From: Labia minor
Taxonomy: Eukaryota; Arthropoda; Insecta; Dermaptera; Spongiphoridae
Assembly (NCBI GenBank): GCA_963082975.1
Contig: OY720346.1
Location: 23,306,720 to 23,370,719 of the forward strand
Direction of reading: 5' to 3'
Length of the DNA: 64,000 nucleotides
This document shows, in pieces, positions 1 to 59,597 of this stretch. Each line of letters begins with the position of its first letter. The first letter of the stretch is position 1. The notes beneath the pieces were generated by a model, which did no database searches, was not told the origin of the DNA, and saw only the letters and a program-made list of their open reading frames with translations. The translations under genes were made by a program, and so were the position numbers.

Positions 1-414
1 TTGAAAATTCAGAAAATTATCTTACATATTCCACAAACTTATTACATTCCATGTCCACTGATGACTTATTATATAATTTATGGAAACTCGAGGATGTTCC
101 TGATAATATTCCTTTTTCTAAAGATGACCAATATACGGAACAACATTTCTTAGAAACACAAAAGATTACGAAATGGAAGGTACTCTGTTAAATTACCATT
201 TAAATCAGAGCCGCCGGACTTGAAGGATTCTTATAGTTTAGCTCGAAAAAGATTTTTTCTACAAGAGAAAAAACTTAACAAGGATTTAGCAACAAAGAAA
301 GCTTATTCTGATTTTATCAACGAATATATTATATTAGACCACATGGAATTTGTTAAAGAAATTAAGGATCAATTTGATTTCAATCAGGATGAATATTCAT
401 ATCAATCACTGTAA
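1..414 (+). pseudogene. BEL/Pao retrotransposon pol remnant, region just before reverse transcriptase
   Basis: Two frames together resemble the segment of BEL/Pao polyproteins between protease and reverse transcriptase. The first frame runs to about 180 and reads as a WKLEDVP-like stretch with an acidic segment. After a frameshift near 178-190 a second frame reads LPFK, then SLARKRF, EKKLNKD and a Y-x-F-x-x-EY-x-x-x-x-HME-like block at about 300-350. That block is typical of the family just upstream of the polymerase palm. The frame stops at 412-414. No catalytic palm is present: only 11 bases separate it from the DUF5641-like piece that follows, so most of pol has been deleted. The element runs off the left edge. 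Family assignment is from remembered conservation, not a search. Confidence 0.7.
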
Positions 415-425
415 AACAAGATTTA

Positions 426-746
426 ATGAACTTTGAAACGAATCGTCTATCTAGGTGGCAACTTATCCAACAAATACAACAATGTTTCTGGAAAAGATGG
501 AAAAATGATTATTTAACTTCGTTACAGGTAAAAGCAAAATGGTTCCAAGGCAAACATGATGTTCAATTGAATCAAATTGTACTTGTTCGAGATTCAAGAA
601 CTACACCTCTCTTATGGAAGATAGGAAAAATTATTGAGATATATCCAGGACAAGATGGAATAACAAGAATTGTCAAGATTCTAACCCGATCGGGTGAAAT
701 AGTGAGGCCAATCACCAAGTTAGCTCCTCTTCCCGAAAATGACTAA
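426..746 (+). pseudogene. BEL/Pao integrase C-terminal (DUF5641-type) remnant
   Basis: A 106-codon frame carries the hallmark order of the DUF5641 region at the C-terminus of BEL/Pao integrases. RWQLIQ and FWKRW lie at residues 10-25 with YL at 29-30. They are followed by a basic patch, a VLVRD strand, LWKIGKI and a YPGQDG-TR turn, and the frame ends in KLAPLP. In complete elements this region ends the polyprotein and is close to the 3' LTR; no LTR pair was recognised here. The upstream reverse transcriptase, RNase H and integrase core are absent, so this is an internally deleted, inactive copy. The ATG at 426 is only the first in-frame methionine and not a real start. Confidence 0.8.
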
Positions 747-2300: not shown

Positions 2301-4127
2301 ATGGATCTTTATTCACAAGAAGACAGAAAATATCCAATATATATAGGTAAGTTTTATTTCTATGTTATTTTCATCTAAATTTAGGTTAATTGTAACTAAA
2401 ATTATTTTTTTTAATATTATTTGTAATGATATTATTCCTTAAATTGAATTATAAATTAGATATATAAAAATATAATGATTTAAAATAACGAAAATAATTC
2501 TTTTTTAGGTCCTCTATATTCTTGTGTATATTGTCAGAATAATTTTATAAGTGAGGAATTTTTATCTAAACACCTAAAAAAATGTTTTCATAAAAAAATA
2601 TTTTCAATTTTCAAAAATCATGTAAAACTCGAAAAGGATACAGACAAATATTTAAACGAAAAATTTGAAGAAAATACTAATTCAAACCATACAGAAGACA
2701 GGCGTTTACAATGTAATTATTATAAAAAGAAATTTGATCAGAAATCAACTTTAAATACACATTTATTAATTCATAGAGGAGAAAAACCTTTTGAATGTAA
2801 TTATTGTGAAAAGAAATTTGATAGGAAAACTTCTTTAGATAGCCATTTATTAATTCATACAGGAGAAAAACCTTTTAAATGTAATTATTGTGAAAAGAAA
2901 TTTAATCTGAAATCAAATTTAAAAAAACATTTTTTAATTCATACAGGAGAAAAAACATTTAAATGTAATTATTGTGAAAAGAAATTTAATGTGAAATCAA
3001 GTTTAGATAGACATTTATTAATTCATACAGGAGAAAAACCTTTTGAATGTAATTATTGTAAAAAGAAATTTAAACAAAAATCTGATTTAGATGTACATTT
3101 ATTAATTCATACAGGAGAAAAATCATTTGAATGTAATTATTATAAAAAGAAATTTGATCAGAAATCAACTTTAAATACACATTTATTAATTCATAGAGGA
3201 GAAAAACCTTTTGAATGTAATTATTGTGAAAAGAAATTTGATAGGAAAACTTCTTTAGATAGACATTTATTAATTCATACAGGAGAAAAACCTTTTAAAT
3301 GTAATTATTGTGAAAAGAAATTTAATCTGAAATCAAATTTAAAAAAACATTTTTTAATTCATACAGGAGAAAAAACATTTAAATGTAATTATTGTGAAAA
3401 GAAATTTAATGTGAAATCAAGTTTAGATAGACATTTATTAATTCATACAGGAGAAAAACCTTTTGAATGTAATTATTGTAAAAAGAAATTTAAACAAAAA
3501 TCTGATTTAGATGTACATTTATTAATTCATACAGGAGAAAAATCATTTGAATGTAATTATTGTAAAAAGAAATTTTTTATGAAATCACGTTTAGCTAAAC
3601 ATATATTAATTCATACAGGAGAAAAACCTTTTGAATGTAATTATTGTAAAAAGAAATTTAATCAAAAATCACATTTAGATCAACATTTATTAATTCATAC
3701 AGGAAAAGAACCTTTTGAATGTAATTATTGTAAAAAGAAATTTATTCACAATTCAATGTTAGAAAGACATTTATTAATTCATACAGGAGAAAAACCTTTT
3801 GAATGTAATTATTGTGAAAAGAAATTTAATCAGAATTCAATTTTAGAAAGACATTTATTAATTCATACAGGAGAAAAACCTTTTGAATGTAATTATTGTA
3901 AAAAGAAATTTAATATGAAATCAAGTTTAGCTAAACATTTATTAATTCATACAGGAGAAAAACCTTTTGAATGTAATTATTGTAAAAAGAAATTTAATCG
4001 AAAATCACATTTAAAAACACATTTATTAATTCATACAAGAGAAAAATATTTTGAATGTAATTATTGTGAAAAAAAATTTAAACAGAAACCACATTTAGAT
4101 AAACATTTATTAATACATAATGTTTAG
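2301..4127 (+). CDS. Tandem C2H2 zinc-finger protein, two exons
   Basis: Exon 1 is 2301-2346 and exon 2 is 2509-4127, joined across a GTAAGT...TTTTTTAG intron (2347-2508). The frame stays open across the join and gives 554 residues. The ATG at 2301 has an AAAAATGG context and is the only upstream in-frame start. An atypical finger lies near residues 21-43 (Cys21, Cys24, His37, then Cys41 or His43). A linker follows, then 17 units with a strict 28-residue period from Cys84 to the C-terminus, joined by HTGEKPF-type linkers. Units 1 and 6 of the array have Tyr in place of the second zinc cysteine (CNYY). Units 1-5 and 6-10 are a 420-bp duplication. Such arrays bind DNA in the nucleus and usually act as transcription regulators; the target is unknown. 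No KRAB, ZAD, BTB or SET domain is visible. Confidence 0.88.
2347..2508 (+). other. Intron of the zinc-finger gene
   Basis: A 162-bp phase-1 intron with donor GG|GTAAGT at 2347 and acceptor TTCTTTTTTAG ending at 2508. Removing it joins the first 15 codons and one base to the long finger exon without breaking frame. Splicing is inferred; there is no transcript evidence. Confidence 0.8.
2711..3550 (+). repeat. 420-bp tandem duplication of a five-finger block
   Basis: 2711-3130 and 3131-3550 match base for base apart from one substitution: C at 2843 versus A at 3263, which is Ser127 versus Arg267. Each copy encodes five fingers, including one with a Cys-to-Tyr lost zinc ligand. The duplication keeps the reading frame and the 84-bp finger period. 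Confidence 0.93.
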
Positions 4128-27838: not shown

Positions 27839-28540
27839 ATTGGTTTGAGGAATGTGGTTTCTATAACCATGAACATTCAAGTTCACAACCATAATAAGAA
27901 AAATAGGTATTAAAAATAATCGGAAAAAGTCTAGTAGACTGAAATTCGATGAGAAGATTATAAAAAAATGAAAAACCTCACTGTATATATTATATATAAA
28001 ATGTAAATACATATACAGAAAAAGGAAATTGGAAAAAATAACTCCACTCTAACAACTACATTGATCTATCCTAATTTTCTGAAAAAATGCAACCCATTAA
28101 ATAAAGATAAACATCAAATAAGTACAAAGTCTCATTTTCTCCAATAGTCTAAAGCATAGGTTCTTAAACTTATGTACTCCACGGACCCCCACTTGAAAAA
28201 ATTTTTTTTGACGGACCCCCATCACAACTTTAGGTACTTTACGTCATTTTATTAATTAATTTCTGGCTTACGATCTCATAAGGACAAGGATATATGATGA
28301 ATATTTCTAACAGTGATTGGTGAATAACGATTTTTTTGCATATTGTAGAACACATTTTATTAGAAATTATAATATTGAAGAAAGAAAATACAAACATTGT
28401 CATAGCAACAAATCTCACAAATTATAATGGGTACTTACATTAAATTCATATAAATATTTTATAATTTTTTTCAGAAAATATTAAATAAGAAATATTTTAA
28501 AAAATAACTGCATCTATCTCATTAAATATAACTTACATAT

Positions 28541-30400
28541 TTAATGAGATGTATGCAGTTGTTTTCTTGAAACAAGAATCTCAATATCTGGCTTAATATT
28601 GGAAACTTTTAATCTAAGATCCGGCTCTACATTTAATTTGTTTCTATATTTAGACTTAATATAAAATAGTACCGAAAAAGCTTGTTCGCATAAATATGTT
28701 GTGCAGAATGGAATCAAGTGTTGAAGTGCTTTATTTGCAAGCGCAGGATAATCTGACCTGAGAAGTAACCAAAAGTTGCTCAATTCAGTTTTGTTAAATT
28801 TTAGTTTATAAGTTGTATCACATGATAATTCCACGAGAATATCTTGTTCAGGTGCAGATAAATGTTTAGTATTTGTAATTTCCATATTAAATGGATCTCT
28901 GATCCAGTTATTGCAAGGATCAGGAGTAGAAAAATACTTCCTGAAGTTGCTTTTCAAAGTAATTAAATGTTCAACAAATAATTGACGCGTTTGATTAAGC
29001 AATTTTTCACTGGAGCTTTCTATGAAATCATTGAGAGTTGGAAAAGACTCATATACACCGTTCTGGATGCGTTTCGACCACAAGTCGATTTTTTTAATCA
29101 TTGCTTCTATTTTATCTTCAACTTTAAATATATTTACAACAGTACCTTGCAGGCTCAAATTAAGTTCGTTCAATTTTGTAAAAATATCAGTCAAGTAAGC
29201 CACCTTAGCTAACCAGATAAAATCATTGAAACATTCGGTCAGTTCAAAATGCGCATCTATTAAAAACAATCGTATTTCATCTCGAAGCTCAAAAAGGCGA
29301 ATGAGTACTTTCCCGCGGGACAACCAACGTACATCTGTATGTAATAATAAATGTGTATGTTGACTACCCATTTCCTCACACAAAATTTTAAAAACTCTGG
29401 AATTAAGTGGACGAGCCTTAATGAAATTGACAATTTTAACTACTTCGTCTAATGTTCTTTTCAAATCTGGTGACATATTTTTGGCTGCTAATGATTCTCT
29501 GTGAATGCAGCAATGATTCCAAACAACCTGAGGCGCAACATTTTTAATAAGAGCAATCAATCCAGTTCTTGTACCTGACATTGCACGAGCACCATCAGTG
29601 CAAATTCCAACACATTTTGGCCACTCTATTTCATTTTCGGTTATAAAATTATTCAAACTGTTAAATATGTCATTAGCTGTCGTTCGTGAAGGTAGTGAAT
29701 CACAAAACAATACATCTTCTTGTATTTGATTTTCAAACTCATATCTAATGAAAGCTAACAAATTGGCATTATTAGTGACATCAGTACTTTCATCCAATTG
29801 TAATGAGTAATAGTGACTTTTGCGCACTCTCGATATTAATTCTTCTTTTATATTACATGACATGTCTTCAATCCTATTCTTAACCGTATCATTTGATAAT
29901 GAAATCAAATTTATATCGTTTGCTGCTTTAGTTCCTAACATTATATTTGTAATTACTTTTGTAGCAGGAAGAATTAATTGCTCTGCTATATTATGCGGCT
30001 TTCCTGCTTTAGCAATAAGTAGAGCTACTTCATATGATGCCATTACTGCTTTCTTACTCATACCACCAGATCCCGTCTTTACCATCAATTTCTGACTTGA
30101 ATTAAGTTCTTCTTTTTTCATTTTAAAAAATTCGATAGACTTACTAACATGCTCGCTGTGCTTTGTTTGTAAATGACGTCTGAGATTAGCAGGTTTCATA
30201 CTTTCATTGGATAAACTTTCCTGACATAGAACGCAGACTGGTCTTTCCACATCATTGTTGCAAATATAAGTAAATCCAAATGATAAATAATCATCCGAAT
30301 ATTTTCTAGTTTTGCGTTTCTTGGTAGAGTTTGCTGTTGATGCCTCATCATCTGATTCTTTCCGTTTCTGTGTTGAACCAGTTTGTAGCCAACGATCCAT
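28541..30400 (-). CDS. hAT transposase with BED zinc finger (left copy)
   Basis: 619 residues in one open frame, the normal size for the ZBED5/SCAND3-like (Buster-type) hAT group. A basic segment at residues 27-33 (KKRKTRK) may be a nuclear localisation signal. The BED finger ligands are Cys56, Cys59, His76 and His81. The RNase-H-like catalytic core shows LDESTD (Asp203/207), CTDGARAMSG (Asp269) and CEQAFS (Glu572), the expected DDE set with the insertion domain between the second Asp and the Glu. The C-terminal hAT dimerisation region follows directly. It would cut at the element's terminal repeats and reinsert with 8-bp duplications. The ATG at 30400 has an AAAATGG context. All catalytic landmarks are intact, so activity is possible but untested. 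It differs from the right copy at residue 511 (Thr versus Ala). Confidence 0.95.
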   Translation of the reverse strand: MDRWLQTGSTQKRKESDDEASTANSTKKRKTRKYSDDYLSFGFTYICNNDVERPVCVLCQESLSNESMKPANLRRHLQTKHSEHVSKSIEFFKMKKEELNSSQKLMVKTGSGGMSKKAVMASYEVALLIAKAGKPHNIAEQLILPATKVITNIMLGTKAANDINLISLSNDTVKNRIEDMSCNIKEELISRVRKSHYYSLQLDESTDVTNNANLLAFIRYEFENQIQEDVLFCDSLPSRTTANDIFNSLNNFITENEIEWPKCVGICTDGARAMSGTRTGLIALIKNVAPQVVWNHCCIHRESLAAKNMSPDLKRTLDEVVKIVNFIKARPLNSRVFKILCEEMGSQHTHLLLHTDVRWLSRGKVLIRLFELRDEIRLFLIDAHFELTECFNDFIWLAKVAYLTDIFTKLNELNLSLQGTVVNIFKVEDKIEAMIKKIDLWSKRIQNGVYESFPTLNDFIESSSEKLLNQTRQLFVEHLITLKSNFRKYFSTPDPCNNWIRDPFNMEITNTKHLSAPEQDILVELSCDTTYKLKFNKTELSNFWLLLRSDYPALANKALQHLIPFCTTYLCEQAFSVLFYIKSKYRNKLNVEPDLRLKVSNIKPDIEILVSRKQLHTSH

Positions 30401-30630
30401 TTTATGGAGTAATTTATTAACATTGAACTACAATAATATAAATATAATATAAATATAATATAAATATAACGAATTATTATTTACTAGCTATGTTTTAATA
30501 TGATTTTAAATGAATGTTTTAATATCATTTTAAATGAATGTTTTAAATCATTTTAATAAATGTTTTAAATCATTTTAAATAAATGATTTAATATCATTTT
30601 AAATGAATATTAATTTATATAATAAATATA

Positions 30631-30720
30631 TTTCGTAATTTGATTCTAAAATATTATTAATTTCGTAATTTGATTCTAAAATATTATTAATTTCGTAATT
30701 TGATTCTAAAATATTATTAA
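30631..30720. repeat. 30-bp unit repeated three times in the hAT 5' region
   Basis: Three perfect units (30631-30660, 30661-30690, 30691-30720) containing CGTAATTTGATTCTAAAATA. The same triplet is at 57033-57122 in the right copy. Position between terminal repeat and transposase start suggests transposase-binding or promoter repeats. Confidence 0.9.
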
Positions 30721-30905
30721 AATAAATATTTTTTATTCATAAAACTAACTTATACTTACTCTCAAAAACAGCCTTTCTGGGAAATTGCAAAATGTGTTTA
30801 GTGTTTTTATAAAATAATGATCATGCAAATTACACTAAAAATTAAAAAAAATTATTAGCTATAATAAACTATTATTAGCTATAATTTAATTATAATTAAT
30901 TAAAT

Positions 30906-31015
30906 TAATAAAAATAATTTAAAGATACAACTCGTTGAGAAATGAACTTATAATTAACATTAATAAAAATAATTTAAAGATACAACTCGTTGAGAAATGA
31001 ACTTATAATTAACAT
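30906..31015. repeat. 55-bp unit repeated twice in the hAT 5' region
   Basis: Two units (30906-30960, 30961-31015) with GATACAACTCGTTGAGAAAT at the centre. Also doubled in the right copy, about 56735-56845. Confidence 0.9.
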
Positions 31016-31489
31016 TTGCTTTAAAACTGTTTAAAACCCCAGAGTGGACGCTGACAATTTGGGTTTTTCCGGGTAAGACTGTCCCCTCCCCTGGTTTTCC
31101 CCAATAACAAAGTGAAAGAAAATTCCCTTATATGCCTCCCCTTCCGAGCCCCTAAGAGGGGTTATTTTAAAGGAACAATCGAAAAATGATTTTAAATGAA
31201 TGAATGGATGAAAATTCAAATTTTATATATAGTTTTTTATATATGTTTATTTATTCACAAAAAATTAATTGACATAATTATCAATTTAATAAAATAAAAT
31301 AGTATTATTAATAGTATTAAATTATAGCCGTAATTCTCTAGGAGGATATAGTTACACAATGAACTTTAAATATTTATATATGTATATATTTTTACGATGA
31401 TTTTTTTCCGAGGACCGCGGACCCCCAGTAAAGGCTTCGCGGACCCCCAGGGGTCCGCGGACCACAGTTTAAGAACCACTGGTCTAAAG

Positions 31490-56271: not shown

Positions 56272-59200
56272 AAGTGGTTCTTAAACTGTGGTCCGCGGAC
56301 CCCTGGGGGTCCGCGAAGCCTTTACTGGGGGTCCGCGGTCCTCGGAAAAAAATCATCGTAAAAATATATACATATATAAATATTTAAAGTTCATTGTTTA
56401 ACTATATCCTCCTAGAGAATTACGGCTATAATTTAATACTATTAATAATACTATTTTATTTTATTAAATTGATAATTATGTCAATTAATTTTTTGTGAAT
56501 AAATAAACATATATAAAAAACTATATATAAAATTTGAATTTTCATCCATTCATTCATTTAAAATCATTTTTCGATTGTTCCTTTAAAATAACCCCTCTTA
56601 GGGGCTCGGAAGGGGAGGCATATAAGGGAATTTTTTTTCACTTTGTTATTGGGGAAAACCAGGGGAGGGGACAGTCTTACCCGGAAAAACCCAAATTGTC
56701 AGCGTCCACTCTGGGGTTTTAAACAGTTTTAAAGCAAATGTTAATTATAAGTTCATTTCTCAACGAGTTGTATCTTTAAATTATTTTTATTAATGTTAAT
56801 TATAAGTTCATTTCTCAACGAGTTGTATCTTTAAATTATTTATATTAATTTAATTAATTATAATTAAATTATAGCTAATAATAGTTTATTATAGCTAATA
56901 TTTTTTTTTAATTTTTAGTGTAATTTGCATGATCATTATTTTATAAAAACACTAAACACATTTTGCAATTTCCCAGAAAGGCTGTTTTTGAGAGTAAGTA
57001 TAAGTTAGTTTTATGAATAAAAAATATTTATTTTAATAATATTTTAGAATCAAATTACGAAATTAATAATATTTTAGAATCAAATTACGAAATTAATAAT
57101 ATTTTAGAATCAAATTACGAAATATATTTATTATATAAATTAATATTCATTTAAAATGATATTAAATCATTTATTTAAAATTATTTAAAACATTTATTAA
57201 AATGATTTAAAACATTCATTTAAAATGATATTAAAACATTCATTTAAAATCATATTAAAACATAGCTAGTAAATAATAATTCGTTATATTTATATTATAT
57301 TTATATTATATTTATATTATTGTAGTTCAATGTTAATAAATTACTCCATAAAATGGATCGTTGGCTACAAACTGGTTCAACACAGAAACGGAAAGAATCA
57401 GATGATGAGGCATCAACAGCAAACTCTACCAAGAAACGCAAAACTAGAAAATATTCGGATGATTATTTATCATTTGGATTTACTTATATTTGCAACAATG
57501 ATGTGGAAAGACCAGTCTGCGTTCTATGTCAGGAAAGTTTATCCAATGAAAGTATGAAACCTGCTAATCTCAGACGTCATTTACAAACAAAGCACAGCGA
57601 GCATGTTAGTAAGTCTATCGAATTTTTTAAAATGAAAAAAGAAGAACTTAATTCAAGTCAGAAATTGATGGTAAAGACGGGATCTGGTGGTATGAGTAAG
57701 AAAGCAGTAATGGCATCATATGAAGTAGCTCTACTTATTGCTAAAGCAGGAAAGCCGCATAATATAGCAGAGCAATTAATTCTTCCTGCTACAAAAGTAA
57801 TTACAAATATAATGTTAGGAACTAAAGCAGCAAACGATATAAATTTGATTTCATTATCAAATGATACGGTTAAGAATAGGATTGAAGACATGTCATGTAA
57901 TATAAAAGAAGAATTAATATCGAGAGTGCGCAAAAGTCACTATTACTCATTACAATTGGATGAAAGTACTGATGTCACTAATAATGCCAATTTGTTAGCT
58001 TTCATTAGATATGAGTTTGAAAATCAAATACAAGAAGATGTATTGTTTTGTGATTCACTACCTTCACGAACGACAGCTAATGACATATTTAACAGTTTGA
58101 ATAATTTTATAACCGAAAATGAAATAGAGTGGCCAAAATGTGTTGGAATTTGCACTGATGGTGCTCGTGCAATGTCAGGTACAAGAACTGGATTGATTGC
58201 TCTTATTAAAAATGTTGCGCCTCAGGTTGTTTGGAATCATTGCTGCATTCACAGAGAATCATTAGCAGCCAAAAATATGTCACCAGATTTGAAAAGAACA
58301 TTAGACGAAGTAGTTAAAATTGTCAATTTCATTAAGGCTCGTCCACTTAATTCCAGAGTTTTTAAAATTTTGTGTGAGGAAATGGGTAGTCAACATACAC
58401 ATTTATTATTACATACAGATGTACGTTGGTTGTCCCGCGGGAAAGTACTCATTCGCCTTTTTGAGCTTCGAGATGAAATACGATTGTTTTTAATAGATGC
58501 GCATTTTGAACTGACCGAATGTTTCAATGATTTTATCTGGTTAGCTAAGGTGGCTTACTTGACTGATATTTTTACAAAATTGAACGAACTTAATTTGAGC
58601 CTGCAAGGTACTGTTGTAAATATATTTAAAGTTGAAGATAAAATAGAAGCAATGATTAAAAAAATCGACTTGTGGTCGAAACGCATCCAGAACGGTGTAT
58701 ATGAGTCTTTTCCAACTCTCAATGATTTCATAGAAAGCTCCAGTGAAAAATTGCTTAATCAAACGCGTCAATTATTTGTTGAACATTTAATTACTTTGAA
58801 AAGCAACTTCAGGAAGTATTTTTCTACTCCTGATCCTTGCAATAACTGGATCAGAGATCCATTTAATATGGAAATTACAAATGCTAAACATTTATCTGCA
58901 CCTGAACAAGATATTCTCGTGGAATTATCATGTGATACAACTTATAAACTAAAATTTAACAAAACTGAATTGAGCAACTTTTGGTTACTTCTCAGGTCAG
59001 ATTATCCTGCGCTTGCAAATAAAGCACTTCAACACTTGATTCCATTCTGCACAACATATTTATGCGAACAAGCTTTTTCGGTACTATTTTATATTAAGTC
59101 TAAATATAGAAACAAATTAAATGTAGAGCCGGATCTTAGATTAAAAGTTTCCAATATTAAGCCAGATATTGAGATTCTTGTTTCAAGAAAACAACTGCAT

Positions 59201-59597
59201 ACATCTCATTAAATATGTAAGTTATATTTAATGAGATAGATGCAGTTATTTTTTAAAATATTTCTTATTTAATATTTTCTGAAAAAAATTATAAAATATT
59301 TATATGAATTTAATGTAAGTACCCATTATAATTTGTGAGATTTGTTGCTATGACAATGTTTGTATTTTCTTTATCAATATTATAATTTCTAATAAAATGT
59401 GTTCTACAATATGCAAAAAAATCGTTATTCACCAATCACTGTTAGAAATATTCATCATATATCCTTGTCCTTATGAGATCGTAAGCCAGAAATTAATTCA
59501 TAAAATGACGTAAAGTACCTAAAGTTGTGATGGGGGTCCGTCAAAAAAAATTTTTTCAAGTGGGGGTCCGTGGAGTACATAAGTTTAAGAACCTATG
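56272..59597 (+). mobile_element. Complete hAT transposon (right copy, inverted)
   Basis: Nearly base-identical to the element at 28155-31481 but in opposite orientation, about 25 kb apart. The left terminus reads AAGTGGTTCTTAAACT, so the first base is changed. The right terminus is intact. Adjacent 8-mers (GTAATTTA and GCCTATAC) do not match, so no TSD remains. Both internal repeat sets are retained. Differences noted by eye are a handful of substitutions and small indels. Confidence 0.93.
57353..59212 (+). CDS. hAT transposase with BED zinc finger (right copy)
   Basis: 619 residues, identical to the left-copy transposase except Ala for Thr at residue 511 (codon GCT at 58883-58885). BED finger Cys56, Cys59, His76, His81; catalytic Asp203/207, Asp269, Glu572; C-terminal dimerisation region intact. 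Residue 511 lies in the variable stretch before the C-terminal hAT domain, away from the catalytic motifs, so both could be active. The start has the same AAAATGG context, and the stop is followed by an ATTTAATGAGAT palindrome-like stretch also found in the left copy. Transposition of this copy itself may be weakened by the altered first base of its left terminus. Confidence 0.95.
   Translation: MDRWLQTGSTQKRKESDDEASTANSTKKRKTRKYSDDYLSFGFTYICNNDVERPVCVLCQESLSNESMKPANLRRHLQTKHSEHVSKSIEFFKMKKEELNSSQKLMVKTGSGGMSKKAVMASYEVALLIAKAGKPHNIAEQLILPATKVITNIMLGTKAANDINLISLSNDTVKNRIEDMSCNIKEELISRVRKSHYYSLQLDESTDVTNNANLLAFIRYEFENQIQEDVLFCDSLPSRTTANDIFNSLNNFITENEIEWPKCVGICTDGARAMSGTRTGLIALIKNVAPQVVWNHCCIHRESLAAKNMSPDLKRTLDEVVKIVNFIKARPLNSRVFKILCEEMGSQHTHLLLHTDVRWLSRGKVLIRLFELRDEIRLFLIDAHFELTECFNDFIWLAKVAYLTDIFTKLNELNLSLQGTVVNIFKVEDKIEAMIKKIDLWSKRIQNGVYESFPTLNDFIESSSEKLLNQTRQLFVEHLITLKSNFRKYFSTPDPCNNWIRDPFNMEITNAKHLSAPEQDILVELSCDTTYKLKFNKTELSNFWLLLRSDYPALANKALQHLIPFCTTYLCEQAFSVLFYIKSKYRNKLNVEPDLRLKVSNIKPDIEILVSRKQLHTSH

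Follow-up and report, generated by a model that had tools for sequence, protein, structure and literature searches.

PRDM9 carries a coding-minisatellite zinc-finger array in which blocks are duplicated, the framework is homogeneous and helix positions -1, +3 and +6 are diverse, and the insect ZAD zinc-finger genes, which join an N-terminal module to a C2H2 array, have undergone lineage-specific expansion. Tetrapod KRAB zinc-finger genes are well established as a large clustered family whose contact residues are diversifying, and they are described in the same way in the passages of PMC10547256 that we draw on. Those passages also describe the FiNZ-ZNF genes of cyprinid fish, which repress transposons and are under positive selection, and whose knock-down raises transposon transcripts; zebrafish has 684 of these genes, almost all on 4q, and FiNZ itself is a 28-residue module encoded by its own exon and lacking similarity to known domains (PMC10547256). 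In Oncopeltus, the passages used from PMC6444547 describe ZF271-like proteins that have 3–45 fingers with pentapeptide linkers and no domain besides the fingers; within Hemiptera, repeat content did not follow the ZF271-like expansion (PMC6444547). Because counts of such reading frames exceed a thousand in many arthropods (passages of PMC10547256), the kind of family analyzed here is already known. In a literature search that, beyond PMC10547256 and PMC6444547, covered titles and the starts of abstracts, we found nothing naming this particular head or family.

The window, that is, the whole 64,000-nucleotide stretch analyzed, contains a spliced gene that encodes a protein of 554 aa with 17 C2H2 fingers, one per 28 residues (Table 1). 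The intron begins with GT directly after exon 1 and ends with AG, and its acceptor region is conserved across 41 aligned rows. Using hmmscan, we identified zf-H2C2_2 (7.5e-136) and zf-C2H2 (3.3e-75) in the protein, which has the tandem C-x2-C-x12-H-x3-H units and TGEKP-type linkers of C2H2 poly-zinc-finger proteins; further entries that overlap with finger sequence, such as zf-BED, PyrI_C and BolA, were treated as cross-matches. Non-finger sequence is present on both flanks of the array. Window positions 1-746, some 1.5 kb upstream of this gene, contain short open frames that by eye resemble the final part of a BEL/Pao-type retroelement polyprotein.

Table 1. Features of the finger gene, in window coordinates
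Feature	Position	Strand	Description
Exon 1	2301..2346	+	46 nt; MDLYSQEDRKYPIYI and first base of split Gly codon (15 codons + 1 base)
Intron	2347..2508	+	162 nt; GGTAAG donor, TTTTTTAG acceptor
Exon 2	2509..4127	+	Head module, 17 C2H2 fingers, stop; open in spliced frame
Head	2523..2585	+	Single C-x2-C..H-x3-C motif (CVYCQNNF..HLKKC), residues 21-41; from translation
Block copy 1 (fingers 1-5)	2711..3130	+	431/432 identical at 420 shift
Finger 1, degenerate	2712..2795	+	CNYY: second zinc Cys is Tyr; from translation
Derived base C	2843	+	AGC, Ser127, helix +6 of finger 2
Block copy 2 (fingers 6-10)	3131..3550	+	431/432 identical at 420 shift
Finger 6, copy of finger 1, degenerate, mid-array	3132..3215	+	From translation
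Ancestral-type base A	3263	+	AGA, Arg267, helix +6 of finger 7
Fingers 11-17	3552..4124	+	Outside duplicated block

In the initial annotation, this array was assigned a 420-bp tandem duplication of a five-finger block. The duplication is present where it was placed: at a shift of 420 bp, 431 of 432 bases agree from 2710 to 3141, and the next mismatches beyond this stretch fall at 2709 and 3142. At ten other shifts, all multiples of 84 bp, only 371–382 of the 432 bases agree, so the block duplication is real and not the usual likeness of one finger to another. The description as five fingers holds in part, as only four of them are complete; the fifth (finger 1, copied as finger 6) has a Cys-to-Tyr replacement. 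Fingers 1–5 of this one family member were recently duplicated in tandem and in frame, and the duplication carried along the damaged finger 1, the copy of which now lies mid-array and, judging from its sequence, probably splits the array into shorter working runs. A single block doubled during assembly is a possible alternative, and some relatives are near-identical neighbors (L018/L019); however, one base separates the two copies, non-finger sequence borders the array, and comparable blocks are present in 14 of the 59 arrays described below, which makes such an artifact very improbable. Taken alone, the block duplication in the window is of little weight.

The sole difference between the copies (C at 2843, A at 3263) was correctly numbered in the initial annotation as Ser127 versus Arg267 at helix position +6; both residues immediately precede the first zinc-binding His of their fingers. 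Of 691 other fingers of the family, none uses AGC at +6, whereas 127 use AGA, so the serine copy (copy 1) is the changed one. Replacements in contact codons make up 9.5–10% of all possible substitutions in the 420 bases, depending on transition bias. Since ~10% of random substitutions would replace a contact residue, a single Ser/Arg change is unremarkable, and we rejected it as a sign of selection (chance about 0.1), in agreement with the annotation's own caution that one difference cannot prove selection. The change would slightly shift the motif read by one copy of the repeat, and it may be neutral.

The genome analyzed comprises 604,477,936 bases in 71 contigs. Among the 23 contigs examined, seven large ones together span about 599 Mb (C1, 126.3 Mb; C2, 95.4 Mb; C4, 86.4 Mb; C5, 83.5 Mb; C6, 70.8 Mb; C9, 60.0 Mb; C10, 76.9 Mb). 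A genome search with the block yielded 142 matches from the 40 scored of 1185 candidates. When the head was used instead, all 150 scored candidates (of 1376) matched, the weakest with E = 1e-31, and 149 of these 150 had no internal stop. A 38-base head pattern with ≤3 mismatches identified 771 genome sites, and a 26-base finger-framework pattern with ≤2 mismatches identified 12,933; each pattern read backwards identified 0. Counted by heads, the predicted family size is about 770 genes, a figure that perhaps includes damaged heads and perhaps misses diverged ones.

The best 150 head matches are those most similar to the window gene, and 96 of them lie on C10, which makes up 12.7% of the genome. 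C10 holds 64 of the 73 exact sites of one head variant; for another, 10 of 20 exact sites are on C9 and 5 of 20 on C10. On the six large contigs besides C10, the 38-base head pattern has at least 92 exact matches, and the window gene itself is located on C4. Crowding on C10 is strong, but it varies with sub-lineage. On C2, one fetched locus (L020; C2:32,003,979 on the minus strand and 32,004,843 on the plus strand) contains two family genes head to head, with head matches ~650 bp apart, one difference in 216 head positions and 6/6 aligned fingers identical, forming a small gene palindrome.

We fetched 58 loci (L001–L058), picked for their likeness to the window gene; three of them are the window's own gene. 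These loci contained 63 open frames with ≥3 fingers, from which 59 arrays and 707 fingers were obtained; L030 and L058 had none. Between 4 and 22 fingers were found per array, as bounded by the fetched stretch, and some arrays may extend further. Exon 1-like sequence followed by GT was identified upstream of 32 of 43 distinct family heads, including that of the window gene, with introns of 162–1402 nt; for the 11 heads without exon 1, the upstream sequence examined was ≤600 bases in nine cases and 1500 bases in two. Where sequence sufficed, members share a plan of a tiny exon 1, an intron, a conserved head and a run of near-identical C2H2 fingers. A retrocopy origin of the family was considered and rejected on the basis of the exon 1 and GT upstream of those 32 heads.

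The majority sequence of the head is GPLYSCVYCHTNFISEEFLSKHLKKCFHKKIFSIFKNDVKLKKD, which combines a basic stretch with a C2HC-type motif. Against Pfam at E 10, the head gave four matches, all to zinc-finger families and all under the cut-offs; against PDB it gave 31 weak matches, mostly to zinc fingers, with a best E of 0.017. The head matched no known repressor domain in either Pfam or PDB. KRAB, PR/SET and ZAD are each absent from the 24 Pfam families matched by the whole window protein at E 0.1 and from the four matched by the head at E 10. A scan of viral contigs with exon 2 returned six pattern matches, of which 0 were confirmed, so no viral relative was found there. As in the window gene, the first finger reads CNYY or CNYF, with the second zinc Cys lost, in L016, L017, L020, L021, L031, L032 and L035; because this loss in the first finger recurs across relatives, finger 1 is suggested to belong functionally to the head. 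In L002, L003, L015, L042, L051 and L057, the array ends at a stop or frameshift and more finger-coding frames follow downstream; based on these sequences, the six members look shortened or decaying.

Across the fingers, amino-acid entropy is 3.06 bits at -1, 2.82 at +3, 2.31 at +6 and 2.11 at +5, and it is 0–0.12 bits at the structural residues C, C, F, L, H and H. Our finger finder required F, H and H and nearly fixed the remaining structural residues, so the structural entropy and the first pN/pS figures are partly built in. We therefore repeated the pN/pS comparison with 22 skipped in-register units restored (729 units, 59 arrays); all six structural residues are kept in 689 of the 729. 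Relative to pooled pS, and with finger pairs that are not independent of each other, pN/pS is 3.80 at -1/+3/+6 (bootstrap over arrays, 3.41–4.18; 3.73 before the 22 units were restored), 1.61 at -2/+1/+5 (1.59 before), 1.04 at +2 (1.02 before), 0.66 at other framework positions (0.65 before) and 0.06 at structural residues (0.03 before). When the contact codons' own pS is taken as the reference, the contact ratio is only 1.7. Silent variation near the contact codons is almost absent; the first Lys of KKF is encoded by AAG in 637 of 660 cases although the gene is A+T-rich, a bias that speaks more for recent shared ancestry than for codon preference. Part of the contact diversity can be old diversity reshuffled by recombination.

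Within-array block duplications, defined as ≥3 fingers with ≤2% difference, were identified in 14 of 59 arrays. These recent blocks contain 34 codon differences: 11 replacements and 2 silent changes at contacts, 15 replacements and 3 silent changes in the framework, and 2 replacements and 1 silent change at -2/+1/+5. Contact replacements are in excess, at 11/34 against ~10% expected (p about 3e-4), and they remain so when the window gene is left out (10/33, p about 1e-3). In the framework of these recent duplicates, the ratio of 15 replacement to 3 silent differences gives no sign of constraint. The excess is smaller among close paralogs whose heads are near-identical, with contact replacements at 16 of 92 differing codons (p about 0.02). 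Exchange, instead of point mutation, may account for some differences. The initial annotation had seen the Ser/Arg difference as fitting rapid retargeting; that difference is no evidence of it by itself, but the family-wide contact pN/pS of 3.7–3.8 in 59 arrays and the composition of the block differences favor it.

We compared 12 paralog pairs whose heads are identical: in seven, under half of the aligned fingers match exactly, and in the other five most of them do. L016 and L017, which lie 10 kb apart on C2, have 0/216 head differences and differ at 1 of 150 intron bases, yet they share no identical finger beyond the first, and the first finger of L017, which has lost one His, is otherwise nearly the same as that of L016. 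In L022 and L024, contacts match over the first six fingers and then diverge. Because pairs with identical heads differ in their fingers, arrays can change faster than the head gathers single-base mutations. To look for finger blocks passed between genes whose heads have diverged, we examined the 41 array pairs that share an exact stretch of ≥120 bp. Seven of them have ≥10 head differences (an indel inflates two of these counts), and no long exact block was detected in pairs of this kind, the longest being 166 bp. The arrays behave as coding minisatellites, with gain, loss and replacement of fingers, diverse contacts and conserved structural residues.

Like PRDM9, the family combines a minisatellite-like array with diversity centered on the contacts, which is a resemblance only; it differs in comprising several hundred genes and not one, and in having no PR/SET or KRAB match. 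The initial annotation's term "PRDM9-like" is thus apt for the style of evolution and not for the domains. An N-terminal module followed by a C2H2 array is also the plan of insect ZAD zinc-finger genes, whereas the window protein has no ZAD match. A large clustered family with diverse contacts recalls tetrapod KRAB zinc-finger genes, but no KRAB match was obtained here. The features reported for the arrays of the ZF271-like/APEZ genes of pea aphid and Oncopeltus are present, namely poly-C2H2 arrays, tandem clusters, recent expansion, arrays that differ from each other and no KRAB; the window family has, in addition, a conserved head without a known domain, the comparison being by description from passages of PMC6444547. 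Compared in the same way with passages of PMC10547256, FiNZ-ZNF genes likewise number several hundred and join a short conserved N-terminal module to fingers. They are also crowded on one chromosome, as are the 96 of the closest 150 matches on C10, and in some clades their contacts are enriched for positive selection, a counterpart to the contact diversity seen here (PMC10547256, same passages). Unlike FiNZ as described there, the head of the window family contains a C2HC-type motif and is encoded together with the fingers in exon 2 (PMC10547256).

Based on sequence and on analogy, our preferred reading, which we hold to be probable, is that this large finger family with arrays turning over serves as host defense, with an action like that of KRAB-ZNF, FiNZ-ZNF or ZF271/APEZ proteins. 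Under such a mechanism, each family protein would bind a different DNA motif and recruit, through the head that all share, the same repressive partner; continual change in the family would stem from a protracted conflict with parasites of the genome, most probably transposons. By analogy with KRAB-ZNFs and FiNZ-ZNFs, repression of genomic parasites is the likeliest role, and transposon fighting, which was also raised in the initial annotation, would be the best analogy. A neutral coding minisatellite, in which unequal exchange duplicates and homogenizes fingers and contacts vary only for lack of constraint, would produce turnover through duplication and replacement, and both the 15:3 ratio in the framework of recent duplicates and the modest contact excess in close paralogs (16/92) fit it. 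Mere relaxation, however, would give a contact ratio of about 1, and contact pN is 3.8 times pooled pS; the structural ratio of 0.06 and the 11 contact replacements among 34 block differences also argue against neutrality, which we consider unlikely.

Two further alternatives concern what the family acts upon. It may suppress drive or sex-linked repeats, or may itself be such an element, with C10 crowding as the consequence. By convention, the sex chromosome is listed last among contigs, and C10 (76.9 Mb) comes after six large contigs that descend from 126 to 60 Mb; from this place in the contig order alone, C10 is possibly a sex chromosome. The share of the best 150 head matches on C10 (96) and the 64 of 73 exact sites of one head variant are in keeping with such a conflict. 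Against it, sex linkage is drawn from listing order only, the 150 matches are those closest to the window gene, which sits on C4, the second head variant is more frequent on C9 (10/20) than on C10 (5/20), at least 92 exact head sites are on the remaining six large contigs, and local tandem duplication could explain the crowding; we give sex-chromosome conflict little credence. The bolder proposal of a new family of ~770 genes that keeps a head without a known domain, replaces its fingers and, from a sex chromosome, would police drive or sex-linked transposons as an independent counterpart of KRAB and FiNZ is likewise doubtful. Least likely of those set out in these two paragraphs is an expansion of ordinary regulatory transcription factors for gene control instead of defense: an arms race is not a necessary cause of insect ZF271-like expansions according to passages of PMC6444547, but several hundred close paralogs with diverse contacts and fast turnover would be hard to square with conserved targets.

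If host defense is the true function, the lineage would have built a KRAB-less DNA-targeting repertoire as large as the FiNZ family of zebrafish. With near-identical heads but arrays that differ in many cases, family members provide natural replicates for following how zinc fingers are retargeted, and the shared head is a possible single route to knock down very many family genes together.

Elsewhere in the window, two 3.1-kb copies (28381-31480 and 56273-59372) lie inverted, 24.8 kb apart, and are 100% complementary. Each contains a frame of 619 aa (28541-30400 on the minus strand, 57353-59212 on the plus strand), and the latter has a weak match, under the cut-off, to the hAT dimerisation domain (E 8.5e-4). 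From these sequences, the pair probably represents two very recent copies of a hAT-like transposon.
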